In this document: positions 2,704 through 38,359 of the stretch, in pieces
Layout: every line of letters starts with the position of its first letter
How positions within the stretch are numbered: position 1 is the stretch's first letter
From: an uncultured Prevotella sp.
Lineage (GTDB): Bacteria; Bacteroidota; Bacteroidia; Bacteroidales; Bacteroidaceae
Assembly (NCBI GenBank): GCA_934203355.1
Contig: CAKPZC010000008.1
Location: forward strand, 1 to 49,643
Length of the DNA stretch: 49,643 nt
Direction: 5' to 3'
Program-made: the position numbers and the translations under genes
Notes under the pieces: model-generated
The model's input: only the letters and a program-made list of their open reading frames with translations
What the model was told of the DNA's origin: nothing
The model's database searches: none

Positions 2704-2740
2704 ATTGTTGATGTGTTGATTTAATTTAATTAAGTCTTGA

Positions 2741-2872
2741 GGGTTTTGGTAACTTCGTTTTCAAGCCTTGGAAACTCATGTGTTAAGTTCCTAAACTCTC
2801 TGTTTTGAGCCTTGGGAACCCATGTACTGAGCCTTGGTAACTCGTGTTTTGAGCCTTGGTAATAAACTTTTC
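2741..2872. repeat. Six-copy 22-bp tandem repeat upstream of the VapE-like gene
   Basis: Six contiguous units of exactly 22 bp start at 2741, 2763, 2785, 2807, 2829 and 2851. The best-conserved part is GAGCCTTGGTAACTCGTG, with a CCTTGG core in units 2, 4, 5 and 6; units 1 and 3 are more diverged. There are no spacers, and 22 is not a multiple of 3, so the array is neither CRISPR nor coding. Constant phasing close to two helical turns is what iterons or arrayed operators look like. Confidence 0.88.
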
Positions 2873-2904
2873 CGAGGTTATTTATTTCCGCAGCTTTATG
2901 CGTG

Positions 2905-3360
2905 TTACATGAAGTCGATTTCTTCCCGTGTGTAGTTGAAGCAAATGTTTTTGTAGCCGTAGCGTTCGAACAGTTGTTTAATCCAGTTTTGTTGTTCGGG
3001 CGACAGTCGTCGGATGCCGTGATGATAGCGGTAGTACATACTATTGCCTCCGAGATAGTTGCGCATCAGAGCACGTAGTATAGGTGCGTCCTTTGTCTTC
3101 ACCTCGTCGAACATCCTGTCGAACCCCCATGCCGTATTTATTATGCGCATGGGTTTGTAGTGTTGGCATGAGTCGTCTGGTCGCAATGCGTTAGCAAAGA
3201 TGGCTTTGCCGGCAGTATGCGAGTCGTCGAGAGCAATGGTTGAGATGTAGTGCAAGCATACCTCATGTTGAGGACAGTTGTCGTTGAAGCAATAAGCCCA
3301 GTTGTGTGGAATGTCACTGCTATTGATAGCAGTCTTATGAAGTTTGTTGTGTTTTACCAT
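2905..3360 (-). CDS. DUF6078-like protein
   Basis: Small cysteine-containing protein of unknown function resembling the Bacteroidetes DUF6078 family: an early HNWAYCFNDNCPQHEVCLHY segment with regularly spaced Cys residues, and a C-terminal FERYGYKNICFNYTREEIDF segment. The cysteines (C-x4-C-x5-C) could bind a metal, but this is untested. I chose ATG 3360 (MVKHNK, 151 aa), not the TTG 60 bases upstream, because a good Bacteroidetes promoter lies inside that longer frame. It sits immediately before the 22-bp repeat array and the VapE-like gene on the same strand, so the two probably form one module. The family name is from memory. Confidence 0.7.
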   Translation of the reverse strand: MVKHNKLHKTAINSSDIPHNWAYCFNDNCPQHEVCLHYISTIALDDSHTAGKAIFANALRPDDSCQHYKPMRIINTAWGFDRMFDEVKTKDAPILRALMRNYLGGNSMYYRYHHGIRRLSPEQQNWIKQLFERYGYKNICFNYTREEIDFM

Positions 3361-3389
3361 TTTTGAAACTATTTGTTTTTGATTGTCTG

Positions 3390-3421
3390 CAAAATTACAA
3401 TATTGCGCATAGGTTGTCAAT
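3390..3421 (-). promoter_or_regulatory. Promoter of the DUF6078/VapE module
   Basis: Read on the minus strand, a -33 box ATTG (3421-3418), a 20-nt spacer and a -7 box TAATTTTG (3397-3390) match the Bacteroidetes consensus. The ATG at 3360 lies about 30 bases downstream. Confidence 0.75.
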
Positions 3422-3486
3422 AGTTCCAGACAAGTTTCTTGGGTTTATAAGTATGTGGTAATAATGAAAGTTAACGGAAGTTTGGG

Positions 3487-3780
3487 CTCATACAAAAGCG
3501 GGCTGAAAGCCCAATGTTCTCCATAGCCCAGGGCAACGCCCTGGGTATAAGGCATTTAAGGACAATGCGCCCTGTAAGGGCAACTCTATTGTTCCATGTA
3601 GAGTTGCCCTTACAGGGCGCATGGGTTGTGTTTATCCGTTACCCAGGGCGTTGCCCTGGGCTATGGAGATACTGGGCTTTCAGCCCGCATTGTTTAGGTT
3701 TTGACTTACCCTCCTGTGGAGATATTGGGCTTTCAGCCCGCTTTTGTATGAGTTTTGTTTCACACACCCTCCTCCTACTA
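3487..3780. repeat. Mosaic hairpin element, copy 1
   Basis: Nested inverted repeat. The outer arms are GCGGGCTGAAAGCCC (3498-3512) and its complement (3674-3688); next come CCCAGGGCAACGCCCTGGG pairs; the centre is a perfect 22-bp stem (3567-3588 with 3599-3620) built on GCGCCCTGTAAGGGCAAC. The right end is duplicated: a second GGGCTTTCAGCCCGC lies at 3727-3741, followed by the shared end ACACACCCTCCTCCTA. Copies 2 and 3 are at 11018 and 24209. Open frames here are by-products of the palindromes, so I call no gene. Confidence 0.9.
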
Positions 3781-3825
3781 TATGTAAAAATGAGTCTATA
3801 AAGATAACTTTGTACAGATCAGGCT

Positions 3826-3888
3826 GGCAGATAGACACTCCCTTATGGCAGATAGACTATCTCGTATGTCAGATGGACTGGCACATTT
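3826..3888. repeat. Three-copy 21-bp tandem repeat (GCAGATAGAC)
   Basis: Units at 3826-3846, 3847-3867 and 3868-3888 begin GGCAGATAGAC, GGCAGATAGAC and GTCAGATGGAC. An ATCTGCCAGCC word overlaps the start in reverse (3824-3834 region) and recurs forward near 3904; the same word lies at the 3' edge of the VapE-like gene near 1470. A TGTCAGATATGTCA copy follows at 3951-3964. The rest of 3780-3971 holds no gene that I can see. Confidence 0.7.
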
Positions 3889-3971
3889 CTCGTTTTTTCA
3901 AAAATCTGCCAGCCTTTAAATGTTTGTATTACAACGAGTTGCGTCATTTATGTCAGATATGTCACTTTTTT

Positions 3972-5411
3972 TCACTTAAACAATTCTTCCATGGTTATTA
4001 CCTTTTGTATTCTTCCTGCATACTCGTTGAACTTTAGGCCATAAGTTGTGATTAGCGTTAGGTGCAGTGCGTTCCTGCATTTCGTTTCCTCCAAGAATGT
4101 GCTTAGTTTATTTCGTAAGTTCTTGTCGTAGCTTGCGTTGATAGTGAAGTCGTCATCGCAGAATTTCATTTCGCAAATATTGTTTATGTGGTCAGCCCTT
4201 TCGATAATCAAATCTATTTGAGCCCCATCTTTAGTCTTTCTGCTTTTCCATGGACTTGCCTCAGTCTGTACCCCACTGATGCCAAGCGACTGCTTTATTT
4301 GTGGCAGGTGGTATATGCAGACCGACTCGAAAGTGAAGCCACGCCATGCCGTTAGCGACGGTGTGAGCAGGTTATCCTGCCAGAAAGTTGGGTTAGTTGT
4401 TTTTTTGCCATCGATGAACGATAGGTAGAATTTGCTATAGAAGTCGGTGAGCCGATAATACACCTCCCTTTTAGGATAGCCGTATTTCACATACGAGGTG
4501 ATGAAATCGCTTACTTCTAAAGTCTTCAATGTGTTTGTCAGTCCTCCACCGTCAGACAATTTAGTTTGTTCATGTATCTCTTTCCTCGTATATCCTTGTT
4601 GCTTGCGTGCAAGTAGTTGTACTATTTTTTTGCAATCATCGGCATTTGTGAACAGCGATGAGTACAGACGGTCGAATTCCAACTTGAGTTTGGCATTTGG
4701 TTCAAAGAAGAGTCTGTCGATATTTTGTGCCAAACTCTTACCTTTTTGCAGCATTGAGATATAATACGGAATTCCACCTGTTGCCATATAGCATTGCAAT
4801 TGGTCAAATTTTGACATGATAATGTCGTTAGCCTGATAGTATTTTTCGCATTCACCCAATGTGAATGGTCGCAATTTGATTTCATCAGTAGTACGGTCGA
4901 ATAGTCCCCCCTTATTGTTGAGTAGTTTGTCGGAAATCCACGACGTAGCCGAGCCGCATACGATAAGCATCAAATTCTCTCTTCCAGCTCCCCATCCATT
5001 CCAAAAATGTTCTAAAGCTGTGATAAAGCCCGAACGAGGAGAGTCCATCCATGGTAATTCATCGATGAAAACCACTTGTCGTTTTTTATCATTCTGTTTT
5101 TCCAGCAGGTCGATGAGCGCATCGAATGCTTCCAACCAATTAGTTGGAATATGGTTGATTCCACTACCGTACCTAATGAGCGACGTGTAGAAATTGCTCA
5201 GTTGTTGTTCCTTCAATTTTGCGCCAGTTAGTTCGTATGGCGATAATCCCGTATGATAGAAGTTAAACTTATTGCCTAATAATTCCCTTACCAGAAAAGT
5301 TTTGCCAACTCTTCTTCTACCGTATACAACAGCGAAAACTGGCTTGTTTGAATGATACAAAGCTTCAATCTCCTTGATTTCTTGTTCTCTTCCAATAATT
5401 TTCTGTGCCAT
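3972..5411 (-). CDS. AAA ATPase of the ATPase_2/DUF234 type with nuclease-like C-terminus
   Basis: 479-aa ATPase related to the archaeal-type ATPase_2 family. Walker A is GRRRVGKT (31-38), Walker B VVFIDEL (113-119), followed by a sensor-like CGSATSW. A winged-helix-like middle (YTRKEIHEQTKLSDGGGLT) leads to a C-terminal segment DGAQIDLII then CEMKF, which has the D...ExK spacing of PD-(D/E)XK nucleases. Start ATG 5411 (MAQKIIGREQEI) matches family N-termini. Such genes occur widely in Bacteroidetes and archaea without a settled role; mobile-element or defence functions have been proposed. Its promoter carries three copies of a TTCGCGCAAAAT palindrome half, one of them over the -33 box. Confidence 0.85.
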   Translation of the reverse strand: MAQKIIGREQEIKEIEALYHSNKPVFAVVYGRRRVGKTFLVRELLGNKFNFYHTGLSPYELTGAKLKEQQLSNFYTSLIRYGSGINHIPTNWLEAFDALIDLLEKQNDKKRQVVFIDELPWMDSPRSGFITALEHFWNGWGAGRENLMLIVCGSATSWISDKLLNNKGGLFDRTTDEIKLRPFTLGECEKYYQANDIIMSKFDQLQCYMATGGIPYYISMLQKGKSLAQNIDRLFFEPNAKLKLEFDRLYSSLFTNADDCKKIVQLLARKQQGYTRKEIHEQTKLSDGGGLTNTLKTLEVSDFITSYVKYGYPKREVYYRLTDFYSKFYLSFIDGKKTTNPTFWQDNLLTPSLTAWRGFTFESVCIYHLPQIKQSLGISGVQTEASPWKSRKTKDGAQIDLIIERADHINNICEMKFCDDDFTINASYDKNLRNKLSTFLEETKCRNALHLTLITTYGLKFNEYAGRIQKVITMEELFK

Positions 5412-5430
5412 ATCAATTCTTATTTTGCTG

Positions 5431-5461
5431 TAAAGGTACTTAAATTATCGTTTCGCGCAAA
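5431..5461 (-). promoter_or_regulatory. Promoter of the ATPase_2/DUF234 gene
   Basis: On the minus strand, TTTG (5461-5458), a 19-nt spacer, then TACCTTTA (5438-5431), one base off TAnnTTTG. The -33 box lies inside the first palindrome half-site (5451-5463). The ATG is about 20 bases downstream. Confidence 0.6.
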
Positions 5462-5522
5462 ATTATCAATCGTTATTTTGCGCGAAATGGGTTGAAAAGG
5501 GTGCTTCGCGCAAAATAACGAT
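5451..5522. promoter_or_regulatory. Palindromic operator-like array TTCGCGCAAAAT (three half-sites)
   Basis: TTTCGCGCAAAAT occurs at 5451-5463 (+), as ATTTTGCGCGAAA at 5475-5487 (-) and as TTCGCGCAAAAT at 5505-5516 (+). The second and third extend to an exact 18-bp inverted repeat, ATCGTTATTTTGCGCGAA (5469-5486) against 5505-5522. The first copy overlaps the -33 box of the minus-strand ATPase promoter, whereas the AraC promoter on the plus strand (5573-5604) is not covered. Confidence 0.8.
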
Positions 5523-5572
5523 ATTCCTTTAAGTCAATAATAAGGTGGGGATAAAATAAAAACTGTAGATTG

Positions 5573-5604
5573 TTTGCTTGTTTGCGAAGAATGTTTTATA
5601 TTTG
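5573..5604 (+). promoter_or_regulatory. Promoter of the membrane AraC-type regulator
   Basis: TTTG (5573-5576), 20-nt spacer, TATATTTG (5597-5604). Transcription would start near 5611, which favours ATG 5662 over the TTG at 5623. Confidence 0.8.
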
Positions 5605-5661
5605 CAGTTGTAAAACTTCGACTTGATTACTATTATTATTTATACTGCTTACAATCCACTT

Positions 5662-6747
5662 ATGGACAATTACAATCTGTTATACCTTGTCTATGGTATG
5701 TGCCTTATGTTCCATCTGATGATGGGCTGGGTGTTCTGTTTCCGCAAGAATGGTCTCGCCAAGAAGCTCATAGGTGCGCTGATGTTTCTTGTGGTGTTGC
5801 AATACTTCAAGGATTTGTTCATGTTGCAGGGCTTCTATGGTGAGGGGGCTTATGCAGAGCGTGTGGCGTCGAGCATCGACGTTGTGACAGTGCCGCTCTA
5901 TGTGCTCATACTTGTGGAGTTCTGTCGTCCCCATTGGCTTAATATGCGCCGCATCGTGGTGTCCGAACTGCCCTTTATATTGCTTTCGCTCTTGTATGTG
6001 CTCACAAGATACGCTCTTTTCTATCATCTTATGATGAGTCTTGCCCTTATATATGGTGTGTTGTGCGCCCTATGGACCATCCGCGAGCTTCCCGTCTACC
6101 ATCGTCGGCTGAAGGAAGAATATTCCTACGACGAGGATATCAACCTGCATTGGTTGCGTGGTGTCACACTGTTGTTCTTTGTGATACTCTTGCTGTGGAT
6201 ATACAGTAACGCCAAACCATGTCCCGAGAGTGACACTATCTATATGTTGAGTTCGCTTGTGGGATGGTCGGTGACGTGCTATTTCATCAACAAGCAGGAG
6301 TTGGTATTGCGTGAGGTGATGGGCAACGAATCATTGCTTGAGTTGCCAGGCGACGAGAATGATAAGATCACGGCAGAAAGCGACGAGCAGGTTTGCGATG
6401 AGGTTGTTGAGAATCTACAGAATAGTATTCGCAGTCTGTTTGAGAACGATAAGGTCTATCTTGACCCCAAACTTCGTCTCTCGGAGCTTGCTGTGCGCCT
6501 CGGAACCAACCGCACCTACCTAAGTCAGTACTTCAATCAGAGTTGCGAACAGTCGTTTTATGCTTATGTCAACCGCTATCGCGTGAGTCATTCCATGCAT
6601 CTGCTGCTCACCACCGACTACACCATCGAGACCGTGGCGTTGATGTCGGGTTTCAACTCTATATCAACGTTCCGTCGCGCTTTTCTGTCGCAAAATGGGT
6701 GTAGTCCTTTACAATATCGCAACAATGCCCCCGAAAAACCGGGGTAA
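5662..6747 (+). CDS. Membrane-anchored AraC-family transcription regulator
   Basis: 361-aa regulator. The first 220 residues are hydrophobic with about six or seven membrane segments (for example LLYLVYGMCLMFHLMMGWVF and GVTLLFFVILLLWIYSNA). A linker leads to a C-terminal AraC-type double helix-turn-helix (LRLSELAVRLGTNRTYLSQY, then YTIETVALMSGFNSISTFRR). This layout suggests a sensor that reads a membrane or periplasmic signal and binds DNA directly. Start ATG 5662 (MDNYNLLY) fits the promoter better than TTG 5623. Neighbours are the divergent ATPase gene and a convergent membrane LuxR-type regulator. The target is unknown. Confidence 0.85.
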   Translation: MDNYNLLYLVYGMCLMFHLMMGWVFCFRKNGLAKKLIGALMFLVVLQYFKDLFMLQGFYGEGAYAERVASSIDVVTVPLYVLILVEFCRPHWLNMRRIVVSELPFILLSLLYVLTRYALFYHLMMSLALIYGVLCALWTIRELPVYHRRLKEEYSYDEDINLHWLRGVTLLFFVILLLWIYSNAKPCPESDTIYMLSSLVGWSVTCYFINKQELVLREVMGNESLLELPGDENDKITAESDEQVCDEVVENLQNSIRSLFENDKVYLDPKLRLSELAVRLGTNRTYLSQYFNQSCEQSFYAYVNRYRVSHSMHLLLTTDYTIETVALMSGFNSISTFRRAFLSQNGCSPLQYRNNAPEKPG

Positions 6748-6825
6748 AATAGGGTAAAAATGCAGATTTTTATTTATTGAACTATTGTTTTTACCGATTG
6801 AACCGTAGAATGCAAATAAAATCCA

Positions 6826-6998
6826 TAACTTTGTGATGTAGATATAAGTCAACAGCACAAAACTTTAAAATATACCTCATGTTCCCACTTCAAGGTGGAA
6901 GCATATTCTAATTAACAGAGAAGCAGTTTGTAATTGTTTGATAATCAAGAAAAGAGTTTTTTATTTTGAACCTGCCTAGCAGTGATGCTGGGCGGGTT
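6826..6998 (+). ncRNA. Candidate small RNA between the two membrane regulators
   Basis: A -7-like box TAACTTTG (6826-6833; no good -33 box) precedes about 160 nt without a convincing ORF. A 10-bp hairpin with one wobble and one mismatch lies at 6879-6904 (ATGTTCCCAC against GTGGAAGCAT), and a G+C-rich terminator hairpin closes the region at 6969-6998. Promoter, structured middle and terminator together suggest a free-standing RNA. Bacteroidales-1/6S-like RNA has a similar size and layout, but I cannot assign it. An AraC 3'UTR is the alternative. Confidence 0.35.
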
Positions 6999-7007
6999 TC
7001 CCTTTTT
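6969..7007 (+). terminator. Rho-independent terminator after the AraC-type gene / candidate sRNA
   Basis: Stem AACCTGCCTAGCA (6969-6981), loop GTGA, TGCTGGGCGGGTT (6986-6998), with two G-T pairs, followed by TCCCTTTTTATTTTT. Confidence 0.85.
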
Positions 7008-7076
7008 ATTTTTCCCCTTAAATTTTTCCCTTTTCACTTTTCCCTTTTAATTTTTCCCTTTTCCCTTTTCACTTAT
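6999..7076. repeat. Pyrimidine tract of TTTTCCC repeats overlapping a gene end
   Basis: Repeats of TTTTTCCCTTTTCAC run from the terminator into the 3' end of the LuxR-type gene, so its last residues (EKGKGKN) and stop codon come from the tract. A similar tract is at 15744-15820. Confidence 0.75.
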
Positions 7077-8054
7077 TTTAATCAGTGCTTCTTTCAGATC
7101 ATCCCCCTTTGTGAGTTTCAATTTTCTGCGTATATGAATCCTCACGGTGCCTATGTTGTTAGGTTTCTTGCCCATTATTTGTGCTATTTCGGCGAGAGTC
7201 TTGCCACCCATGATAAGTCGGCACACCTCTAGTTCGGTGGGTGTGAGTTGTGGCAGCAGTTCTGCCATGTCCTGTCGTTTCATGTGTCGTTCGCCAATGC
7301 GCAGATTCACCGCCCTTATCAGGTTGGCTTCCGACAGGTCGTCAAGATGCTCAAAGAATCCGCTCACTGACTTCTCCGTCGGTTTGTTTTGGCGGCACAG
7401 TTTCACGTATGCGTTCAGTTCCTCCTTGGTCATGTCAAAAGCGTCGAGTATTCCCTGCTCAGTAACCTTATAGTTGGTGTTTTCGCGTTGCATGTTGTGT
7501 ATGCTGCGTTGTATGAAGTCGCCTATGAGACAGGTGAACACTTCCACGAATGTGAAAATCACCACCACTTGTCTGTTTAGGGCTCCGTCGGTGTAGTAGT
7601 AAGCGAATATCAGTGTGGCGAGACTTATCATGGTGTTCGCAATGGGTATCCACCTTACGAAGCCTATTACCAGATGTATGATGATGATAAGCGAGATGAT
7701 TTGGTTGAGCACGATTGCCCATACAAATCCTTCGGGCTGCACAATAGTATTGTAGACGATGCGGGCTGTCTGAGCCACCTGCAATGTTATGGTGAATATG
7801 GATACCGCGGTGATGAGCGATATAATGCGCTTTAGGTATAGTCCGAACACTATGACGCTCACTGTCCACGAAGCCACTGATATAGTTTGCAGTACGGGGT
7901 TGTTGATGCCTAATACACCGAGAAGATGAAGCGGCATGCCTGTGATAGCCATAACGACACCTATGATATAGACAATGATACACACTCGCTGCTCCTGGTT
8001 TTTGGTGCGACTGTCGATGAAGTGCCTTATACTTAGTTTTAGTTCCTTGCTCAT
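7047..8054 (-). CDS. Membrane-anchored LuxR-type transcription regulator
   Basis: 335-aa protein. About six hydrophobic membrane segments fill residues 22-185 (for example VCIIVYIIGVVMAITGMPLH and VVVIFTFVEVFTCLIGDFI). A soluble linker and a C-terminal LuxR/GerE helix-turn-helix follow (LTPTELEVCRLIMGGKTLAE, then GTVRIHIRRKLKL, about 268-320). It is convergent with the AraC-type membrane regulator and divergent from the 52-aa peptide gene at 8248. A -7-like TATCTTTG on the minus strand at 8103-8096 may be its promoter, with no clear -33 box. The signal sensed is unknown. Its last six residues derive from the TTTTCCC repeat tract. Confidence 0.82.
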   Translation of the reverse strand: MSKELKLSIRHFIDSRTKNQEQRVCIIVYIIGVVMAITGMPLHLLGVLGINNPVLQTISVASWTVSVIVFGLYLKRIISLITAVSIFTITLQVAQTARIVYNTIVQPEGFVWAIVLNQIISLIIIIHLVIGFVRWIPIANTMISLATLIFAYYYTDGALNRQVVVIFTFVEVFTCLIGDFIQRSIHNMQRENTNYKVTEQGILDAFDMTKEELNAYVKLCRQNKPTEKSVSGFFEHLDDLSEANLIRAVNLRIGERHMKRQDMAELLPQLTPTELEVCRLIMGGKTLAEIAQIMGKKPNNIGTVRIHIRRKLKLTKGDDLKEALIKISEKGKGKN

Positions 8055-8177
8055 AGTTAGTTGGATTTTTAGTAGTAAATGGTTCGTTTTAAATACAAAG
8101 ATAGCAATATCTTCTGGTTTTTACCCATTTTTACCCCTGTTTTTTCAACTCGTTGCATCAATTTACGCCTAATGAAA

Positions 8178-8209
8178 TTTGTTTCTTTGAAAACAAAGCC
8201 CTAATTTTG
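8178..8209 (+). promoter_or_regulatory. Promoter of the 52-aa peptide gene
   Basis: TTTG (8178-8181), 20-nt spacer, TAATTTTG (8202-8209), an exact consensus match, 38 bases before the ATG at 8248. Confidence 0.82.
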
Positions 8210-8247
8210 CGGAATAATAATTAAAACAACCACAAAAACGATCTATT

Positions 8248-8406
8248 ATGAAGAAAATTTACCAAAAACCAGAACTGACAGTGCTTAGTATGGAACCAGC
8301 TACTATTATCGCTACTTCAGGAGGGACAATGTTGAGAAAGGAAGGAAAAATCAACGAACTCGGTTATGATGGCTATGGAATAATCACAGCCGAACAAACA
8401 CGCTAA
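8248..8406 (+). CDS. 52-aa peptide of the MKK-Y-x-KP-E type
   Basis: Short gene beginning MKKIYQKPELTVLSMEPA and ending TAEQTR. It has a consensus promoter and a normal ATG, so I believe it is expressed. Prevotella and Bacteroides genomes carry many small proteins with this kind of opening (MKK, aromatic residue, x-KP) and a Ser/Gly-rich segment near residues 20-28; here it reads IATSGGT. Function is unknown. The SGG step after a 24-residue leader-like region resembles a leader cleavage site, but no peptidase-transporter is nearby. It lies divergent from the membrane LuxR-type gene and upstream of the convergent DUF4143 ATPase. Confidence 0.7.
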   Translation: MKKIYQKPELTVLSMEPATIIATSGGTMLRKEGKINELGYDGYGIITAEQTR

Positions 8407-8439
8407 CACTTAACCCCAAATCGTTTATCAATTTATATA

Positions 8440-9645
8440 TCACACTTCCATCATCCACTCCAACGCATTCATTCTCTTTATGCCGTCGTAGTCGGCTGTC
8501 GGGTCGTCGTCGAGCGTCAGTATTATTTTGGGGTACTGGTCCTTGATTTGTTGCAGCGATGTCAGTTCGCGCTTCAGTGTTTTCTCATCCCTAACCGTTG
8601 CCGCCACCTGATAATAAGTGATGCCGTCAGGGTCTATAGCCACGAAGTCCACCTCCAGATCATCCACCTTTCCTATATATACCTTCTTCTGACGATGAAG
8701 GAGTTCGAGATAGACGATGTTCTCGAGAATGCGTCCTGCGTCGAACGAACGTGAGCCTAAAAGCATGCGACGCAAACCAAGGTCAACGAGATAATACTTG
8801 CCCAATGTCTTGAGCAGCTGCTTACCTTTGATGTTATATCGCTTAGCCTCGTACACAAAGAAGGTCTCGCAGAGGGCGGAAAGGTAGCGTTCTACCATCT
8901 TCTGGTCTATTTTCCTGCCGTCTGCAGTCATTATGTCGGCTATGCGTTTCGTGGAAAGGATGTTGCCAATATTGTCAGCCGTAAATCGGATGACACTCTC
9001 AAGCATCATCACATCGGGCAGGCGTTTGCGACTCATGATGTCTTTCACTACAATGGTGTTATACACCCCATTAAGATAATCGCTAACTTCGGATGGTGTG
9101 TCGAGTTCCAAGGAATAAGGAAAGCTACTACGGGTGATATAGTCAGTATATGCCTTAGAGATGTTGTCAGTAGCCTCAGTGGCTACCACGTATTCCTTAA
9201 ACGAGAGAGGAAGCATGGCTATCTCGACATATCTGCCAGACAGAAGAGTGGCTATCTCGCTGGACAGCATGTAGGCGTTCGAACCAGTAACGTAAATATC
9301 TACCGTTGATTTGAGATTTAGGCTGTTTATGATGTCAGGAAAATCCTCCACGTGCTGTATCTCGTCAAAGAACATATAGGTCATCCGGTCCTTGAGGATG
9401 AGTGGCTTTATATATGCGTAGAGATTCTTTGGATTGCGAAGTTCATAATAGTCGTAATCCTCAAAATTCAGATACACAATCTGATTGTCTGTTACTCCAT
9501 GCGCCAAAAGCCAGTCGCGATAAATCTCCATTATAGTAGACTTGCCGCAACGTCGAATGCCGGTTATCACTTTTATAAGATTCTTGTCCTTAAAGGCTAT
9601 CAGTTTATTGAGATATGCCGTCCGCTCTATTCTTTTCATAACCAC
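8440..9645 (-). CDS. AAA_14/DUF4143 ATPase
   Basis: 401-aa ATPase of the AAA_14 plus DUF4143 architecture. Walker A is GIRRCGKST (about 29-37), Walker B MFFDEI, sensor VTGSNAYMLSSE, then a winged-helix-like region (STKRIADIMTADGRKIDQKM). The C-terminal DUF4143 region (RILENIVYLELLHR, LEVDFVAIDPDG, YYQVAAT) resembles a PD-(D/E)XK fold but has Q-V-A where active members carry E-x-K, so catalysis is doubtful. The start is ATG 9645, or ATG 9639 (MKRIERTAYL). The function of the family is unsettled. As with the ATPase at 3972, a private palindrome array begins at its -33 box. Confidence 0.85.
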   Translation of the reverse strand: MVMKRIERTAYLNKLIAFKDKNLIKVITGIRRCGKSTIMEIYRDWLLAHGVTDNQIVYLNFEDYDYYELRNPKNLYAYIKPLILKDRMTYMFFDEIQHVEDFPDIINSLNLKSTVDIYVTGSNAYMLSSEIATLLSGRYVEIAMLPLSFKEYVVATEATDNISKAYTDYITRSSFPYSLELDTPSEVSDYLNGVYNTIVVKDIMSRKRLPDVMMLESVIRFTADNIGNILSTKRIADIMTADGRKIDQKMVERYLSALCETFFVYEAKRYNIKGKQLLKTLGKYYLVDLGLRRMLLGSRSFDAGRILENIVYLELLHRQKKVYIGKVDDLEVDFVAIDPDGITYYQVAATVRDEKTLKRELTSLQQIKDQYPKIILTLDDDPTADYDGIKRMNALEWMMEV

Positions 9646-9678
9646 TCCTTTTGTTTAATGATGTATTGGTTGACTTCA

Positions 9679-9709
9679 CAAAGATAGATTATTTTTAGGA
9701 CAATCCAAC
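9679..9709 (-). promoter_or_regulatory. Promoter of the DUF4143 ATPase gene
   Basis: On the minus strand, GTTG (9709-9706, one base off TTTG), 19-nt spacer, TATCTTTG (9686-9679). The -33 position overlaps the first CCTAAAA half-site of the palindrome array. Confidence 0.65.
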
Positions 9710-9800
9710 CTAAAAGTTGTTGGAATTAGAAAGTTTTAGGTTAAATCAACCTAAAACTTCTCTATTTTCATAAGTTTTAGGTTGATTTAACCTAAAACTT
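9693..9800. promoter_or_regulatory. Palindrome array AAGTTTTAGGTT/AACCTAAAACTT
   Basis: Two 29-bp blocks, 9731-9759 and 9772-9800, each consist of AAGTTTTAGGTT, 5 bases, AACCTAAAACTT; the spacers (AAATC and GATTT) are reverse complements, so the blocks are exact inverted copies of each other. A third, weaker pair (TTTTAGG 9693-9699, CCTAAAA 9709-9715) abuts the -33 box of the ATPase promoter. The rest of the 359-bp gap up to the rpn promoter shows nothing further. Confidence 0.85.
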
Positions 9801-9948
9801 TCCCTAATACCAATACATTCACGAAATCGAGAACAATTCCCCGATTCAAACTTCACTGCCCAGTTCTGCCGCTATAAAGCTTTGTTTATTCTAATGATCG
9901 ATTTTGGCTAAAGTGATACTATACGTTTATTAATTTCCATTCGAAAAA

Positions 9949-9980
9949 TTTGAATATCTCACGGCAAATCGCTACATTTG
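9949..9980 (+). promoter_or_regulatory. Promoter of the Rpn-type nuclease gene
   Basis: TTTG (9949-9952), 20-nt spacer, TACATTTG (9973-9980), 24 bases before ATG 10005. Confidence 0.82.
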
Positions 9981-10004
9981 CATACAACATTATAAAATAC
10001 ACTT

Positions 10005-10952
10005 ATGACACCTCGTTTTATCAACCCCTTCTCCGACTGGGGATTCAAGCACATCTTCGGTCGTGAGATATCAAAGGACCTCCTCTTGAGCTTCCTCAAC
10101 GACCTCTTTTCGGGAGAGTTCGTGATAAAGAGCCTCATGTTTGGCAACAATGAGCAGATTGGCTTGTCGAATGACTCTCGTGAGGTCGTGTTCGACATCT
10201 ACTGCATCACCGACGAAGGCAAGGAGATTATCGTTGAGATGCAGAATCGTGGGCAGGAACACTTCATCGACCGCGCCCTCTACTACTCGTCGCGTGTTAT
10301 TGTGAATCAGGGCGAAAAGGGCAAGTGGAACTACGATCTGCTCCCCGTCTACACCATCTGCTTCATGAACTTCATCGACCCTAACATGCCGGAATGCAAG
10401 TTCCGTACAGACCTTACGCTCGCCGACCGCGACACCGGTAAAGTGGTGTCCGAGAAGTTGCGTATAATCTATCTTATGCTTCCTCTCTTCGAGAAGGAGG
10501 AGGGAGATTGTGAAAATGATTTTGAACGTTGGATTTTTGTATTAAGAAACATGAACACATTTGAACGTATGCCTTTTATGGCAAAGAATGCGGTATTTAA
10601 AAAACTTGCTGAGATTTCCGATATCAGAAGTCTAAGCAAAAAGGAAATGGATAAATATGAATATAGTCTGAGAGTGATGCGCGACAGCTATGCTACATAT
10701 CAATATGCTGCGAAGAATGGCTGGAAAAAGGGAGTGGCTGAAGGCATGGCTCAAGGCATGGAAAAAGGCATGGCTGAAGGCATGGAAAAAGGCATGGCTG
10801 AAGGCATGGCGCAAGGAAAAGCTGAGGGAAAAGTAGAAGGCGAGCGCGAGAAGGCTCTTGCTATAGCTCGCAACCTCAAGACTTTCGGTTTGTCGATTAG
10901 TCAAATCGCTGAAGCCACAGGGCTTAATCAGGAAGAAATCAATACGCTTTGA
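10005..10952 (+). CDS. Rpn-family PD-(D/E)XK nuclease (recombination-promoting / transposase-like)
   Basis: 315-aa member of the PDDEXK_2/Rpn family, described as recombination-promoting nucleases. It opens with the family signature FINPFSDWGFKHIFG. Probable active-site residues are D64 (FDIYC), E78 and Q80 (VEMQ), giving a D-x13-E-x-Q pattern. Near residues 240-275 lies a run of G-M-A-E, G-M-E-K and G-M-A-Q units encoded by 12-bp DNA repeats, followed by an HTH-like tail (LSISQIAEATGLNQEEI). From about 10495 the DNA becomes clearly richer in A+T than the first half. No terminal inverted repeats of an IS are seen around it. Confidence 0.88.
   Translation: MTPRFINPFSDWGFKHIFGREISKDLLLSFLNDLFSGEFVIKSLMFGNNEQIGLSNDSREVVFDIYCITDEGKEIIVEMQNRGQEHFIDRALYYSSRVIVNQGEKGKWNYDLLPVYTICFMNFIDPNMPECKFRTDLTLADRDTGKVVSEKLRIIYLMLPLFEKEEGDCENDFERWIFVLRNMNTFERMPFMAKNAVFKKLAEISDIRSLSKKEMDKYEYSLRVMRDSYATYQYAAKNGWKKGVAEGMAQGMEKGMAEGMEKGMAEGMAQGKAEGKVEGEREKALAIARNLKTFGLSISQIAEATGLNQEEINTL
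10735..10836 (+). repeat. 12-bp in-frame tandem repeat inside the rpn gene
   Basis: Units GGCATGGCTGAA, GGCATGGAAAAA and GGCATGGCTCAA alternate, encoding GMAE, GMEK and GMAQ. The length is a multiple of 3, so slippage would change repeat number without a frameshift. Confidence 0.8.
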
Positions 10953-10953
10953 T

Positions 10954-11017
10954 AAGTAACAGTTCAGAACTATCTTTATATATATAAGTAAAAGTTCAGA
11001 ATTCTCTTTATATATAA
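10954..11017. repeat. Two-copy direct repeat (about 33 bp) flanking hairpin element 2
   Basis: Each copy begins AAGTAA.AGTTCAGAA and ends in CTTTATATATA. A related sequence (AAGTAACAGTTCTGAATT) directly precedes hairpin element 4 at 36584, so this is the outer conserved flank of the element family. Confidence 0.7.
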
Positions 11018-11308
11018 TAGGAGGAGGGTGTGTCAAAACTCATACAATGCGGGCTGAAAGCCCAATGACCTCCATAGCCCAGGGCAACGCCCTGGGTAAA
11101 CGGATACAAAACCGAACAACGCGCCCTGTAAGGGCAACTATAAAAACAAAGGAATATTAAAGTTGCCCTTACAGGGCGCATTGCCCGTAAATGTCTTATA
11201 CCCAGGGCGTTCTTGCTTAGGCAAGCGGCAGAGCCGAGCGGCCCTGGGCTATTGAGATATTGGGCTTTCAGCCCGCTTTGTATGAGTTCTGACAAACCCT
11301 CCTCCTAC
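11018..11308. repeat. Mosaic hairpin element, copy 2
   Basis: The ends are inverted: TAGGAGGAGGGTGTGTCA at the left and TGACAAACCCTCCTCCTA at the right. Inside are the GCGGGCTGAAAGCCC, CCCAGGGC and GCGCCCTGTAAGGGCAAC arms of copy 1. The right CCCAGGGCG arm carries a roughly 30-bp insert (TTCTTGCTTAGGCAAGCGGC onward) absent from the left arm. The part up to 11457 is short-period repeat (CAACTCGTCTACTTGT) with no gene. Confidence 0.9.
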
Positions 11309-11367
11309 AATTGCCTTGCTGGTTTAAGCCTTGCAAACAACGATTTTCAAGAAAAAGCATATCTTCT

Positions 11368-11456
11368 TGTCAACTCGTTTACTTGTCAACTCGTCTACTT
11401 ATCTACTTATCTACTCGTATCTTGTCAACTCGTCTACTTGTCAACTCGTCTACTTA
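11368..11456. repeat. Simple repeat of TTGTCAACTCGTCTAC
   Basis: Imperfect short-period repeat directly downstream of the CYTH gene. A related sequence (GTTGACAAGTTAACGAG) occurs at 12170-12210. Confidence 0.7.
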
Positions 11457-11457
11457 G

Positions 11458-11949
11458 TTATACCTTCTTTCCCCAATTTTTATATGGATTCTTGAGCAGC
11501 TGTGAGTTGTAGTATCGTCTGTCGCCCGTGACTTCATCACCGATGAAGTCAGGTTTTTCGTACACCTCGTCCTCTGTCTCCAGTTCCACTTCAGCCACCA
11601 CCAGTCCCTCGTTGTCGCCGAAGAATTCGTCCACCTCGAAAACATGTTTGTTATCGGGGCTTTTTACGAGCCAGCGTCGTTTGTCGATGACCCCGCCACG
11701 GCACAGTTCGAACAGATGGTGTGCCTCGTCGTTGCTTATTTCCTTCTCAAACTCATAGCGCGACAGTCCTGTGCGGTCGCTGTGGCTCTTGATAGTGAGC
11801 CACGAGCGGTCGTCGCGTGTGCGCACCCTCACTGTAGCCGACTCGCACGGCATGTAGCCCTGCTTGATATGACTTGAAGAAAAGGCGGCTTCCTTCCAGG
11901 AGCCGCCTTTACGTATTAAGAACTTGCGTTCGATTTCTAATCCACTCAT
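11458..11949 (-). CDS. CYTH domain protein
   Basis: 163-aa CYTH (adenylate cyclase IV/thiamine triphosphatase-like) protein with the diagnostic ExExK motif at residues 5-9 (EIERK). Conserved charged strands follow: VRVRTRDDRSWLTIKS, YEFEKEI, FEVDEFFG and AEVELETED. These line the triphosphate and metal tunnel. Bacterial members mostly hydrolyse inorganic tripolyphosphate, so phosphatase activity is more likely than cAMP synthesis; this is inferred from the family. Upstream on the same strand, 21 bases away, is a 46-aa membrane peptide, probably in the same transcript. Confidence 0.88.
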   Translation of the reverse strand: MSGLEIERKFLIRKGGSWKEAAFSSSHIKQGYMPCESATVRVRTRDDRSWLTIKSHSDRTGLSRYEFEKEISNDEAHHLFELCRGGVIDKRRWLVKSPDNKHVFEVDEFFGDNEGLVVAEVELETEDEVYEKPDFIGDEVTGDRRYYNSQLLKNPYKNWGKKV

Positions 11950-11970
11950 GTGATAATCAGTTTTTTAGGT

Positions 11971-12111
11971 CTAAGCCTGGGTTGTGGTCCATACAGCGAA
12001 TCCCACAGCGAGGACGATGAATCCCCAGAGAATCCACTCTACAATTTTCTTACCCTTTTTCTCTTGTTCCTTTGCGTATTTTTCACGCTTAATCTTACTG
12101 TTCTGGCTCAT
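11971..12111 (-). CDS. 46-aa single-pass membrane peptide
   Basis: Short gene read from the bases: MSQNSKIKREKYAKEQEKKG, a basic N-terminus, then a hydrophobic helix around WILWGFIVLAVGFAVW and a short polar end (TTTQA). It would be a single-pass protein with the charged N-terminus inside. It sits 21 bases before the CYTH gene on the same strand, with a normal ATG and TAG stop. Similar tiny membrane proteins are common in Bacteroidetes; no function is known to me. Confidence 0.65.
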   Translation of the reverse strand: MSQNSKIKREKYAKEQEKKGKKIVEWILWGFIVLAVGFAVWTTTQA

Positions 12112-12128
12112 AGTTATTGATTTTTTAA

Positions 12129-12332
12129 GTTAGTTATTGAAGTTTCGCATGCCTTTGGCATGCTGATAGTTGACAAGTTGACAAGTTAACGAGTTAACGA
12201 GTTAACGAGCTGTTTGCTTTTACAACTCAAACTCTTTATAACAACTTTGATAAGTATGGGTAGCAACTTGTCTACTTGTCCGCTCGTTTACTGTCAGCAA
12301 GTTGAAAACTTGCGAAACTTCAGTTAGTTACT
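12129..12332. repeat. Repeat segment bounded by inverted GAAGTTTCGCA ends
   Basis: The left end AGTTAGTTATTGAAGTTTCG (from 12129) pairs imperfectly with the right end CGAAACTTCAGTTAGTTACT (12313-12332). Inside are a perfect hairpin GCATGCC TTT GGCATGC (12147-12163) and short-period GTTAACGA repeats. The right end overlaps the prfB stop codon. Confidence 0.7.
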
Positions 12333-13446
12333 CTTCGTTTACTGGGAACTCCATGAGATAAGCCTTGATGAATCCGTCGATTTTGCCGTCCATCACTCCG
12401 TCCACGTCGGCGGTTTGGAATCCAGTGCGGTGGTCCTTCACTCGTCGGTCGTCGAACACATAGCTTCTTATCTGGCTACCCCATTCAATTTTCTTCTTGC
12501 CAGCCTCAATCTTCGCCTGAGCCTCAAGTCGTTTCTTCATGGCCCGGTCGTAGAGTTGCGACTTGAGAAGACGCATGGCATTGTTGCGGTTTTCGAGCTG
12601 TTTGCGGCTCTCGGTGTTCTCGATGAGAATCTCCTCCTCCTCTCCAGTGTCGGGGTCGGTGTATTGGTAGCGTAGTCGCACGCCAGTCTCCACCTTGTTC
12701 ACGTTCTGTCCTCCGGCACCACCCGAGCGGAAGAGGTCCCAGCTCACCTTCGACGGGTCGACATACACCTCGATGGTGTCGTCGACAAGCGGCGACACGA
12801 ACACCGATGCAAACGATGTCATGCGTTTGCCCTGCGCGTTGAACGGCGATACGCGCACCAGTCGGTGTACACCGTTCTCGCTCTTCAGGTATCCATAGGC
12901 ATATTCACCACCCTCAATCTCCATGGTGACGCTCTTGATACCAGCCTCGTCGCCCTCCTGAAGGTTGCTAATAGTCACCTTATGTCCGTGTGCCTCAGCC
13001 CATCGCATATACATGCGCATGAGCATTTGTGCCCAGTCCTGGCTCTCGGTGCCACCAGCTCCCGAGTTGATCTTCAGCACACAGTCCATGGGGTCCTCCT
13101 TCTGTCGGAGCATATTCTTGAGTTCCAGGTCCTCGATGGCGTTGATGGCAGCAGTATAGTCGGCGTCCACCTCTTCCTCGCTTACGAGTTCCTCCTTATG
13201 ATAGTCGAAGGCGAGTTGCAGTTCGTCGGCGAGCCGGCGCACCTGCTCATAGCCTTTAATCCACTTCTCAATGCCTTTCACTTTCTTCATCTGCTCCTCG
13301 GCGCGTTTGGGGTCTTCCCAGAAGTCGGGCGCCTGAGTTCGGAGCTGTTCCTCTTCAAATTCTACTTTCTTCTGGTCGATATTCAAGTAGCGGTTGAGCG
13401 CATCGGCGCGCTCGAGCACATCCTTTAGTTGGTCGGCTGTTATCAT
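12328..13446 (-). CDS. prfB: Peptide chain release factor 2
   Basis: 372-aa class I release factor recognising UGA and UAA. The RF2 anticodon-like tripeptide SPF is at residues 200-202 and the catalytic GGQ at 245-247 (SGGAGGQNVNK). The N-terminal stalk and C-terminal domain are complete. The reading frame is continuous through RYLNIDQKK, the place where many bacteria carry a programmed UGA frameshift, so autoregulation by frameshifting is absent here. The repeat array 13447-13770 directly abuts the start, and the acyl-CoA synthetase lies upstream on the same strand. Confidence 0.96.
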   Translation of the reverse strand: MITADQLKDVLERADALNRYLNIDQKKVEFEEEQLRTQAPDFWEDPKRAEEQMKKVKGIEKWIKGYEQVRRLADELQLAFDYHKEELVSEEEVDADYTAAINAIEDLELKNMLRQKEDPMDCVLKINSGAGGTESQDWAQMLMRMYMRWAEAHGHKVTISNLQEGDEAGIKSVTMEIEGGEYAYGYLKSENGVHRLVRVSPFNAQGKRMTSFASVFVSPLVDDTIEVYVDPSKVSWDLFRSGGAGGQNVNKVETGVRLRYQYTDPDTGEEEEILIENTESRKQLENRNNAMRLLKSQLYDRAMKKRLEAQAKIEAGKKKIEWGSQIRSYVFDDRRVKDHRTGFQTADVDGVMDGKIDGFIKAYLMEFPVNEE

Positions 13447-13770
13447 TTATGAGTTTTGAATTTTGAGTTTTGAGTTTTGAATTGTCGCCGTTGGCGATGT
13501 TGAATTTTGAGTTTTGAATTGTTGCCAGAGGCAATTTTGAGTTTTGAATTTTGAGTTTTGAATTGTTGCCTTGCGGCAATTTTGAATTTTGAGTTTTGAA
13601 TTTTGAATTGTTGCCTTGCGGCAATTTTGAATTTTGAGTTTTGAGTTTTGAATTGTTGCCAGAGGCAATTTTGAGTTTTGAATTTTGAGTTGTTGTCTGC
13701 CAATTCCAAATTGAATAATTCAAAATCGGCGTAGCCGACAATTCAAAACTCAAAATTCAAAATTCAAAAC
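13447..13770. repeat. TTTTGAATTTTGAG array with small variable hairpins
   Basis: Direct repeats of TTTTGAATTTTGAG alternate with short hairpin cores of different sequence: TCGCCGTTGGCGA, TTGCCAGAGGCAA (twice), TTGCCTTGCGGCAA (twice) and TCGGCGTAGCCGA. Orientation flips near 13715-13730, so the far end reads CAAAACTCAAAATTC. The whole gap between prfB and the acyl-CoA synthetase is repeat; ORFs called in it are translations of the repeat. A second array is at 38038-38358. Confidence 0.9.
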
Positions 13771-15579
13771 TCAAAATTCGTACATTTTGTCAATCACTTC
13801 CTTGAAGTTCTTGTTAATAATTGGTCGGCGAATCTTGAGCGTGTTGGTCAACTCGCCCGACTCCAGTGAGAAGTGGTGGGCGATGAGTGTGAATCTCTTG
13901 ATTTGCTCATAGGGTGCCAGCTGTTGCTGCAAAGTCTGTATGCGGTCCATCATCATCTTGTTCACCTTCGGGTTGGTGCATAAGTCCTCGCGTGTTTCAA
14001 ACTCGATGTTGTTGTCCTTAGCCCATTCCTCCACGAGTCGGAACTCAGGCACGATGAGAGCCGATACGAACTTGCGCTCGTTGGCAATCACCACCACCTG
14101 ATCGATGAACTTGTCGACCAAGAGCAGCGACTCCACCATTTGTGGTGCGATATACTTGCCGTTGCTGGTCTTGAAGAGGTCCTTGATGCGGTCGGTCAGG
14201 AACAGTTCTCCGTCCTTGATATATCCAGCGTCGCCAGTGCGGAAGTAGCCGTCGGCTGTGAACGCCTCCTTATTGGCAGCCTCGCGCTTGTAGTAGCCTC
14301 GTGTGATGGTGGGGCCCTTGAGCAGAATCTCGTCGTTGTCGCCAATCTTCACCTCCAGTCCGTTGATAGGTCGTCCCACGGAACCGATGGTGAACGGCAT
14401 GTTTTCTCGGTCGCAGGTTACGGTGGCGAGACTCTCAGTGAGTCCATATCCTACCACCATGTTGATGCCCACCGAGTGGACAAAGCGTTCCACCTCGGGC
14501 GACACCGCTGCACCAGCAGTTGGGAATATGTTGGCATCCTCCAGTCCAATCTGCTTGCGCACAAGTCGCAGTATAGCCTTGTCGATAAGTTTATATTCCA
14601 TGGCGAGCAGTGGCGACGGTCGTTTGCATTGGCTCTTGCACTCCACGTTGTAGCGGCGTCCCACGTTGAGTGCGTGGCGGAAGAGGCTCTGCTTGGTAGA
14701 ACTTGAGCGGTCGATCTTGTCCTTCACAGCCTGGTATACCTTCTCCCAGAATCGCGGCACCGACGACATACAAGTAGGATGAGTCTCGCGCATCGACTGC
14801 TGAATCTTGTGAGGGTCGGTATTTATAATAATGTGTGCACCCTCGGAGAATGAGAGGTATGACCATCCGCGCTCAAAGATATGCGTTATGGGCAGGAACT
14901 GTATGATGCGGTCGTTCTCGGTGATGGGCACCACCTCGTCGTTTGCCTTCAAAGCAGCGTTGTATTGTCCATAGGACAGCATCACACCCTTCGACTCGCC
15001 CGTTGTTCCCGACGTGTAGAGAATGTTGCACAGGTCGTCGTCGTTAGCCTCCTTGTAGAGTTGCTCCACCTCGCACTGTCGCGGAAGTCCCTCGCCCAGT
15101 TTCAGGAAGTCGTCGAAGTAGATGGCTGCAGGGTCGTGTGAAGATATGCGCACAGAGCGGTCGAAGATGATGATGCGCTCCAGCGAGTGGCACATGCCGA
15201 ACACGCGGTGCGCCTTGTCGTACTGCTCCTGCTCGCCCACGAAAAGGAACTTAATCTGGGCGTCGTTAATCATATATTGTATCTGCTGCTCCGACGCCGT
15301 GGCGTAGAAAGGGGTAGAGATGACGCGCACGCCGTAGGCACCGAAGTCGGTGATGAGATATTGTATGGTGTTCTGTGAGAACACGCCGATGGTTTCCTGC
15401 GGTTTTGCCCCCAGGTTGAGCAATGCGTTGCTTGCCTGCTTCACCAGGAGAGCGAAGCGGTTGTAGCTCATGGTTTTCCACGTAGAACCGCCGAAGTCCT
15501 TGTATGTGAAGGCTTCGCGCTCTCCATACTTCTCAGCCTGTTTTAGGGCGAGAACCGAAAGATGACATCTTGTTTGCAT
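13771..15579 (-). CDS. Long-chain fatty acid-CoA ligase (AMP-forming)
   Basis: 602-aa member of the AMP-dependent synthetase family that activates fatty acids to acyl-CoA through an acyl-adenylate. The AMP-binding P-loop motif YTSGTTGESKGVM lies at about 188-200, the adenine motif VVGYGLTES and the YFRTGD hinge motif follow, then DRIKDLFKTSNGKYIAP near the catalytic C-terminal domain. The N-terminus (ALKQAEKYGEREAF) is soluble with no signal, so it acts in the cytoplasm. It has a consensus promoter at 15635-15665 and lies upstream of prfB. Substrate chain length cannot be read from the sequence. Confidence 0.92.
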   Translation of the reverse strand: MQTRCHLSVLALKQAEKYGEREAFTYKDFGGSTWKTMSYNRFALLVKQASNALLNLGAKPQETIGVFSQNTIQYLITDFGAYGVRVISTPFYATASEQQIQYMINDAQIKFLFVGEQEQYDKAHRVFGMCHSLERIIIFDRSVRISSHDPAAIYFDDFLKLGEGLPRQCEVEQLYKEANDDDLCNILYTSGTTGESKGVMLSYGQYNAALKANDEVVPITENDRIIQFLPITHIFERGWSYLSFSEGAHIIINTDPHKIQQSMRETHPTCMSSVPRFWEKVYQAVKDKIDRSSSTKQSLFRHALNVGRRYNVECKSQCKRPSPLLAMEYKLIDKAILRLVRKQIGLEDANIFPTAGAAVSPEVERFVHSVGINMVVGYGLTESLATVTCDRENMPFTIGSVGRPINGLEVKIGDNDEILLKGPTITRGYYKREAANKEAFTADGYFRTGDAGYIKDGELFLTDRIKDLFKTSNGKYIAPQMVESLLLVDKFIDQVVVIANERKFVSALIVPEFRLVEEWAKDNNIEFETREDLCTNPKVNKMMMDRIQTLQQQLAPYEQIKRFTLIAHHFSLESGELTNTLKIRRPIINKNFKEVIDKMYEF

Positions 15580-38037: not shown

Positions 38038-38358
38038 GAGTTTTGAGTTTTGAATTTTGAATTTTGAATTGTGCGCCTTTGGCGCATGTTGAATTATTGA
38101 ATTTTGAATTTTGAGTTTTGAATTTTGAATTGTGCGCCTTTGGCGCATGTTGAATTATTAAATTTTGAGTTTTGAGTTTTGAATTATTGGCAGCACCGTT
38201 TTTGAGTTGTACTTATTGAAGTTTCGCAAGTTTGCAACTTGCTTAGACAGTAGACAAGATACGAGTAAATAAGGAGATATGCAATTCTTAATTCATAATT
38301 GATAAAATCAAAATCGGCTCTGCCGATAATTCAAAACTCAAAATTCAAAACTCAAAAT
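38038..38358. repeat. TTTTGAATTTTGAG array with small variable hairpins, second copy
   Basis: Between gmk and yicC: direct TTTTGAATTTTGAG units, two identical hairpins TGCGCCTTTGGCGCA, one ATCGGCTCTGCCGAT, and an AAGTTTCGCAAGTTTGCAAC segment at 38219-38238. Orientation flips at the far end (CAAAACTCAAAATTC). The layout is the same as at 13447-13770, with different hairpin sequences. No gene is present. Confidence 0.88.
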
Positions 38359-38359
38359 T

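Follow-up and report, generated by a model that had tools for sequence, protein, structure and literature searches.

What reads the palindromes that stand ahead of a DUF4143 ATPase gene in an uncultured Prevotella sp., and what do they do there? Two ATPase genes in the window (the whole 49,643-nucleotide stretch of DNA that was analyzed) are each headed by inverted repeats of a different sequence, and an initial reading made from the letters had proposed that every such ATPase carries its own recognition repeats, in one shared geometry.

The array and the gene that it precedes

The intergenic region upstream of the DUF4143 ATPase gene (9640-10004) contains three palindromes of about 29 bp, whose starts lie 41 and 41 bp apart (Table 1). 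Two of them are exact and are perfect reverse complements of each other, with a match that extends to arms of 31 nt (9729-9759 and 9772-9802). The consensus of the Bacteroidota -7 box is TAnnTTTG, and a box of this type lies at 9679-9686; the weak copy therefore lies over the -33/spacer region and directly adjoins the -7 box. When up to three mismatches were allowed, a 23-bp core of the array was found at three sites in the whole window, all of them in this array, and none of 100 shuffles gave three sites. Across the 200-bp stretch that precedes the gene, the array score (two extra copies of an 18-mer) was 32 and the palindrome score was 25, as compared with best values of 29 and 14 in 1000 dinucleotide shuffles. 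The shuffles of the core and of the upstream DNA rule out chance or low complexity as the origin of the array. Together with the coordinates, they confirm the exact inverted 29-bp blocks and the weaker copy that the sequence-only reading had described.

Table 1. Features of the two ATPase loci in the window (positions in the window; residues refer to the DUF4143 ATPase)
Feature	Position	Strand	Remark
DUF4143 ATPase gene	8440-9639	-	399 aa, ATG at 9639; AAA_14 + winged helix + PD-(D/E)XK-like
AAA_14 domain	9190-9582	-	Residues 20-150; Pfam profile
Predicted winged-helix DNA-binding domain	8785-9012	-	Residues 210-285; secondary structure of model
PD-(D/E)XK-like domain	8443-8754	-	Residues 296-399; catalytic E-x-K changed to Q-V-A
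-7 box TATCTTTG	9679-9686	-	Bacteroidota type
Array copy 1	9688-9718	.	Imperfect palindrome, over -33/spacer region
Array copy 2	9731-9759	.	Exact palindrome AAGTTTTAGGTT-N5-AACCTAAAACTT
Array copy 3	9772-9800	.	Exact palindrome AAGTTTTAGGTT-N5-AACCTAAAACTT, reverse complement of copy 2
Second ATPase gene	3972-5411	-	479 aa, ATPase_2 family, PADLOC candidate PDC-S27
Palindrome of second ATPase's array	5451-5487	.	TTTCGCGCAAAAT...ATTTTGCGCGAAA
Second copy of TTCGCGCAAAAT half-site	5505-5522	.	53 bp from first

The DUF4143 ATPase matches the Pfam profiles AAA_14 (2e-34) and DUF4143 (8e-17) and, over its full length (residues 2-398), the PADLOC profile PDLC04787 of PDC-S01 (1.3e-155), a system that was also the best PADLOC match for seven clade representatives. 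An AF2 model (pLDDT 91.9, pTM 0.91) places helices at residues 210-222, 230-239 and 246-258 and wing strands at residues 262-269 and 274-284, and we read this predicted helix-helix-helix-strand-strand unit (residues 210-284) as a probable winged helix. An alpha-beta domain follows at residues 301-396 of the model; the PD-(D/E)XK fold name that we use for the C-terminal domain comes from PMC12988326. A search of solved structures by sequence gave no match for either window ATPase. By fold, the nearest solved structures were the P. abyssi ATPase 2qen and SSO1545, and then NLR/CED-4 and Orc1/Cdc6, with the C-terminal domain barely covered; the NLR/CED-4 and Orc1/Cdc6 relatives include oligomer-forming and origin-DNA-binding proteins.

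Among the clades of related ATPases surveyed below, the E-x-D ... E-x-K nuclease motif is kept in the 33, 23 and 375 clades, reads Q-V without the lysine in the window and L058 clades, and is gone from the 395 clade. Arrays are present both with and without the nuclease lysine, which suggests that they go with the DNA-binding part of the protein and not with nuclease activity. A restriction-type analogy, one of three that had been offered, did not hold up: a Pfam scan of 1486-15579 (nine genes) detected neither a methyltransferase nor any other modification gene, and the catalytic E-x-K is lost in the window ATPase. As the nuclease lysine is missing, the window ATPase is not restriction-like, and with no methyltransferase neighbor either we rejected restriction-modification for this gene. 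No toxin gene adjoins the ATPase in one operon at the window locus. Its same-strand neighbor (7047-8054) starts 385 bp downstream and matches GerE only, and on the opposite side lies a divergent PDDEXK_2 gene (10005-10952), within which we also noticed 12-bp repeats (TGGCTGAAGGCA) at 10735-10810. In viral contigs, four stretches fit the peptide pattern for relatives of P0002, none of which was confirmed.

The second ATPase of the window, a match to PDC-S27 (3e-198), likewise has an array upstream (array score 32 and palindrome score 13, as compared with at most 28 and 11 in 1000 shuffles). However, the two arrays do not share the same geometry, as had been claimed, since the period is 41 bp ahead of the DUF4143 gene and 53 bp at the 3972 gene. 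A top lag of 51-53 was found for 6 of 13 readable ATPase_2 genes (L175, L181, L182, L186, L187 and L192) and, read apart from these 13, for the window's own ATPase_2 gene P0001; for L174 the top lag was tied at 52. The 13 genes, one of which is evidently RecA, come from 26 of 68 matches that were tried, 13 without Walker A by pattern having been set aside.

Arrays in related genes: enrichment, period and letters

Array scores of at least 30, an arbitrary threshold, were found in the 200 bp upstream of 28 of 48 ATPases as compared with 11 of 135 control genes (Mann-Whitney p = 6e-11). The ATPases comprise the two of the window and 46 DUF4143 matches with a usable start, out of 55 (nine without) from five genomes reached via relatives of the window protein; start codons were picked automatically, and that of L001 is plainly too far upstream. 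The controls are S. copri genes whose upstream 200 bp include 150 bp or more of intergenic DNA, all from one genome, and include one ATPase of the same class. The proposed rule of palindromes ahead of these ATPases was therefore not refuted by comparison with other genes. In the whole survey of 220-bp stretches (100 genes filtered from 149 ORF hits, and 62 held-out genes from 74), 87 of 162 genes reach a score of 30: 41 of 52 in the 33 clade, 11 of 12 in the 23 clade, 14 of 32 in the window clade, 7 of 15 in the 375 clade, 5 of 13 in the L058 clade, none of 12 in the clade of about 395 aa, and 9 of 26 without a clade. Since 75 of the 162 genes, including the entire 395-aa clade, fall below the threshold, an array is not needed by every member. 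The claim that each such ATPase has its own repeats thus stands as to their enrichment and, as far as searched, their privacy, and fails as to "each".

Among the 12 top-scoring controls printed, five have a dispersed repeat of the GCCCTGAAAGGGC type upstream; five others were identified as one DUF234/ATPase_2 ATPase, one AbiEi antitoxin and otherwise metabolic or HU-type genes. The AbiEi antitoxin gene (S. copri L096:9209-9769) has a CCGTACAAAAGTACCACAA-type array upstream. A further array ahead of a gene that is no ATPase, made of TTTCGTATATATTAAAACTCCTT-type repeats, lies upstream of the S. copri formate-tetrahydrofolate ligase gene (L099:6395-8113). Dispersed G+C-rich inverted intergenic repeats of the GCCCTGAAAGGGC / CCCAGGGC type occur in S. 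copri L091, L092 and L104, with similar repeats (GGGCTGAAAGCCC and CCCAGGGCGTTGCCCTGGG) at 3500-3740 of the window, and these look like REP-type elements. The window also holds two distant tandem arrays of TTTTGAATTTTGAGTTTTGAATTG-type units (13445-13779 and 38041-38360).

The spacing of successive same-strand copies was 23 bp (15 cases), 31-34 bp (64), 40-41 bp (8) or another distance (4). On a tree of 100 ATPases, the period classes of 47 genes need three changes, as compared with at least 10 (mean 12.3) in 300 shuffles of the labels on the same tree. With clade lists that were drawn up after the periods had been seen, lag profiles peaked at 33 in the 33 clade (z 25), at 23 in the 23 clade (z 13) and at 40 in the window clade (z 12, falling to 10 when the window gene and four close relatives are omitted). 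The 395 clade gave no clear peak, and control genes peaked at 21 (z 6). The period is a trait of the clade: 23, 32-33 or 40-41 bp, with 51-53 bp in genes of the 3972 type. This excludes an identical geometry across all ATPases.

The 40-bp period recurs in relatives from Bacillota and Fusobacteriota. The lag profile of twelve plasmid relatives outside Bacteroidota peaked at 40 (z 6.4), and a top lag of 39-41 was found in 6.5 of 13 plasmid copies from other phyla as compared with 4.4 of 135 controls. For instance, a Monoglobus relative (Bacillota, 56% identity) has AAGTTTT...AAAACTT palindromes 40 bp apart. This top lag was absent from two archaeal, one Treponema, one Moraxella and one Prevotella nigrescens relative; an A. 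baylyi relative likewise has a direct top lag other than 40, but it does have two weak copies with a 40-bp spacing.

We fixed a prediction of the period before any new upstream DNA was read, and then applied it to 62 new genes from nine genomes, 49 of them assignable. The prediction scored 36.2 weighted hits out of 49 (permutation p 5e-5). Six of the nine genomes had earlier contributed one or two genes to the first set, and eight of the 49 genes share 90% identity or more with a known one; when these eight are left out, the score is 28.7 of 41. It was correct for 12 of 17 genes whose identity to the nearest known gene is below 60%. By clade, hits amounted to 19.5 of 22 (33 clade), 6 of 6 (375 clade), 4.5 of 5 (L058 clade) and 5 of 7 (23 clade, the remainder being ties with the 46-bp harmonic). 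The window clade was a clear failure, with 1.2 of 9. Eight of these nine genes are nearest to the L041/L142/L144/L046/L051 sub-clade, which has palindromes in another layout or none that are clear; the remaining gene, whose nearest relative is L053, shows the 40-bp period.

As far as searched, the letters of the repeats are nearly private to each ATPase. For 16 S. copri arrays, the reference 18-mers (up to three mismatches) had 55 copies in their own 220 bp and three matches upstream of the other fifteen ATPases; in a 400-kb control sample, roughly one tenth of the S. copri genome, they had five matches as compared with 6.8 expected from shuffled motifs. When at most one mismatch was tolerated, scans of two complete genomes located CCCTCATAAAATGTG (five and three copies) and TCGTCTATAAACGATA (three and three copies) only at their own ATPase, with copies 33 bp apart. 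The palindrome of an ortholog of 87% identity gave, in a search of the same kind, three copies 41 bp apart at its own ATPase and one more site, which lies in the other genome and is part of a decayed three-copy array. Across 150 genomes of the genus, the window-type palindrome (9-bp center, up to one mismatch) occurred in two, namely in the array of this ortholog and in the decayed array, and a reversed control pattern matched two other genomes once each. The S. copri form of the palindrome (7-8-bp center) was found in one of 301 family genomes, at a single site at its own ATPase. Viral contigs contain seven stretches with a 7-8-bp-center palindrome and two with the window-type 9-bp center, one site each.

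The decayed three-copy array, of the window type, lies in S. copri at L051:66-190 (G001 C9, about 100065-100190), before an exonuclease gene (RNase_T). At the corresponding locus of a relative genome (L155), 82% identical over 214 bp of the array region and 95% identical over 448 bp of the exonuclease, the ATPase sits between array and exonuclease; its presence in L155 only therefore points to gain or loss of the ATPase gene. One locus known with and without the ATPase, and a patchy distribution of the gene (a homolog at E of 1e-70 or lower in 9 of 150 genus genomes), could suggest that the repeats mark the ends or the targets of a mobile element. We consider such an origin, or one by chance or composition, most improbable, given that the repeats keep a fixed period and the promoter side and that shuffles and control genes rarely match them.

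The protein region that tracks the repeats, and what the array may do

Similarity between motifs was compared over 1171 within-clade pairs of 88 array-bearing genes (score at least 29). Identity over residues 210-285, the predicted winged helix, was its best correlate within clades (partial r 0.223 given the rest of the protein, permutation p 5e-4), a modest effect among pairs that are not independent, a dependence only partly handled by within-clade permutation. Given the winged helix, the partial r was 0.005 for the AAA part and -0.08 for the C-terminus. Co-variation with the winged-helix or the C-terminal domain had been put forward, and the repeats track the former and not the latter; this comparison, too, does not refute the proposed rule. 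As an example, two ATPases that are 69% identical overall and 48% identical in the winged helix have different repeats. At residue 248 (codon 8896-8898), in the recognition helix, the window protein has M and six orthologs (69-87% identity) have T, and the core of the repeat is GGTT in the window as compared with GGA in those six; a connection between the two changes may exist, and this single event is a lead only. We also asked whether the recognition helix could determine the letters by itself; among the closest orthologs, however, it hardly varies apart from residue 248, whereas the core letters change.

These data do not show which protein binds, and an unrelated DNA-binding protein might read the arrays, with the ATPase gene as a mere target. 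This is improbable, since the letters are gene-private as far as searched and both motif similarity and period follow the sequence of the ATPase. That the letters vary by gene while the spacing tends to follow the branch of the protein suggests instead that every ATPase recognizes and controls a switch of its own. We therefore consider it probable that the array serves the ATPase gene downstream as its private operator, with binding by the winged helix, contacts that fix the period, and self-repression taken jointly. The winged helix would bind each repeat of its own array, and adjacent bound subunits or dimers would touch via the rest of the protein. Contacts between such neighbors would fix the period of each clade, close to 2, 3, 4 or 5 full turns of DNA. 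Because the copies overlap the promoter, binding would shut the gene off, and self-repression would keep the level of the ATPase low and self-set. The letters would have drifted apart because paralogs in one genome must not cross-regulate.

Several observations weigh against the private operator. The prediction of the period failed in the window clade, many members score below the array threshold, and the closest orthologs differ in core letters with hardly any change in the recognition helix. In addition, arrays overlap the core promoter only somewhat more often than random placement would give: this was found for 33 of 40 arrays with a recognizable -7 box, as compared with a mean of 25.7 at random (maximum of 2000 placements 35), and 7 of 47 arrays have no recognizable -7 box. 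Six of the seven non-overlapping arrays lie wholly upstream of the promoter and would be compatible with activation as well. IniR, which has an AAA domain like that of SSO1545, acts as an activator (PMC5760070).

It is possible, with less likelihood, that we are dealing with ordinary autoregulation only, like that of AbiEi-type antitoxins, and that the period reflects helical phasing of cooperative operators. This alternative overlaps with the private operator and denies only that the period reports contacts between ATPases. The inverted repeats of AbiEi-family promoters are bound cooperatively (PMC7319586), an AbiEi gene surfaced among our controls by the same array score, and the periods are near whole DNA turns. 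Taken alone, however, it does not account for a period that stays constant within clades and between phyla while the letters change at 50-60% protein identity, or for five-copy arrays that extend past the -7 box.

Orc1/Cdc6 sits on origin repeats, and ParR on parC. The arrays might similarly serve as an assembly platform or self-address, where an oligomeric ATPase is parked and its real job, in defense or element stability, is released or triggered. The tandem phased copies, their presence on plasmids of several phyla and a fold related to those of DNA-bound Orc1/Cdc6 and oligomeric NLR/CED-4 are consistent with such a platform; we nevertheless regard it as unlikely, as there is no sign of an origin or partition function and dozens of copies lie within one genome.

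A role of the ATPase in phage defense is a candidate by label only. The private operator could be part of a self-addressed defense switch, in which a phased oligomer is kept scarce and safe on its own array until a phage attack takes away host DNA or leaves the promoter unoccupied and the oligomer is set free to act, a scenario that we hold to be quite doubtful. If it were true, one could read the letters of an array as a specificity tag for a very common uncharacterized ATPase family, and fast-drifting letters with a fixed period would be a signature of paralogs that avoid cross-talk. More generally, the arrays are a likely DNA ligand, readable from sequence, for many such ATPases, and their period may report how the ATPase assembles on DNA. 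The 28 DUF4143 matches in Segatella copri and 35 in a relative (fragments included) provide a natural experiment on private specificity among paralogous DNA-binding proteins.

Comparison with known systems

The window ATPases match PDC-S01 and PDC-S27, both of which are names without a mechanism. PDC-S01 is the fourth most common defense system across prokaryotes according to PMC12988326, whose relevant passages describe ATPase domains fused to PD-(D/E)XK, give validation as pending for most PDCs, and mention no repeats at PDC-S01 or PDC-S27 genes. Operator arrays are a known kind of element; in the open-license literature, covered mostly by titles, we found no published description of the present arrays, nor of a large family with private arrays and a clade-linked period.

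The AAA plus winged-helix fold is shared with STAND/NLR proteins, which have C-terminal sensor repeats, whereas the 399-aa window protein ends in a DUF4143/PD-(D/E)XK-like domain and gave no sign of sensor repeats in the Pfam scan or the model. Kinship of fold also extends to Orc1/Cdc6; in contrast to these proteins, the ATPases show no sign of an origin, have their own letters for each paralog and carry an extra PD-(D/E)XK-like domain. The mycobacterial IniR is an AAA ATPase of the same broad class that binds a promoter, but it activates another operon and has a separate C-terminal DNA-binding domain (PMC5760070).

Of the three analogies first offered, toxin-antitoxin-like autoregulation would be the closest. 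Members of the AbiEi family repress their own promoter via inverted repeats (PMC7319586), and the ATPases resemble AbiE in having a DNA-binding protein and inverted repeats over its own promoter, with repression as what we infer here. However, AbiE is a two-gene toxin-antitoxin operon, whereas the window system is a single gene for an ATPase that combines AAA, winged-helix and nuclease-like parts, and the ATPase arrays, unlike those of AbiE, have up to six copies and a clade-bound period.
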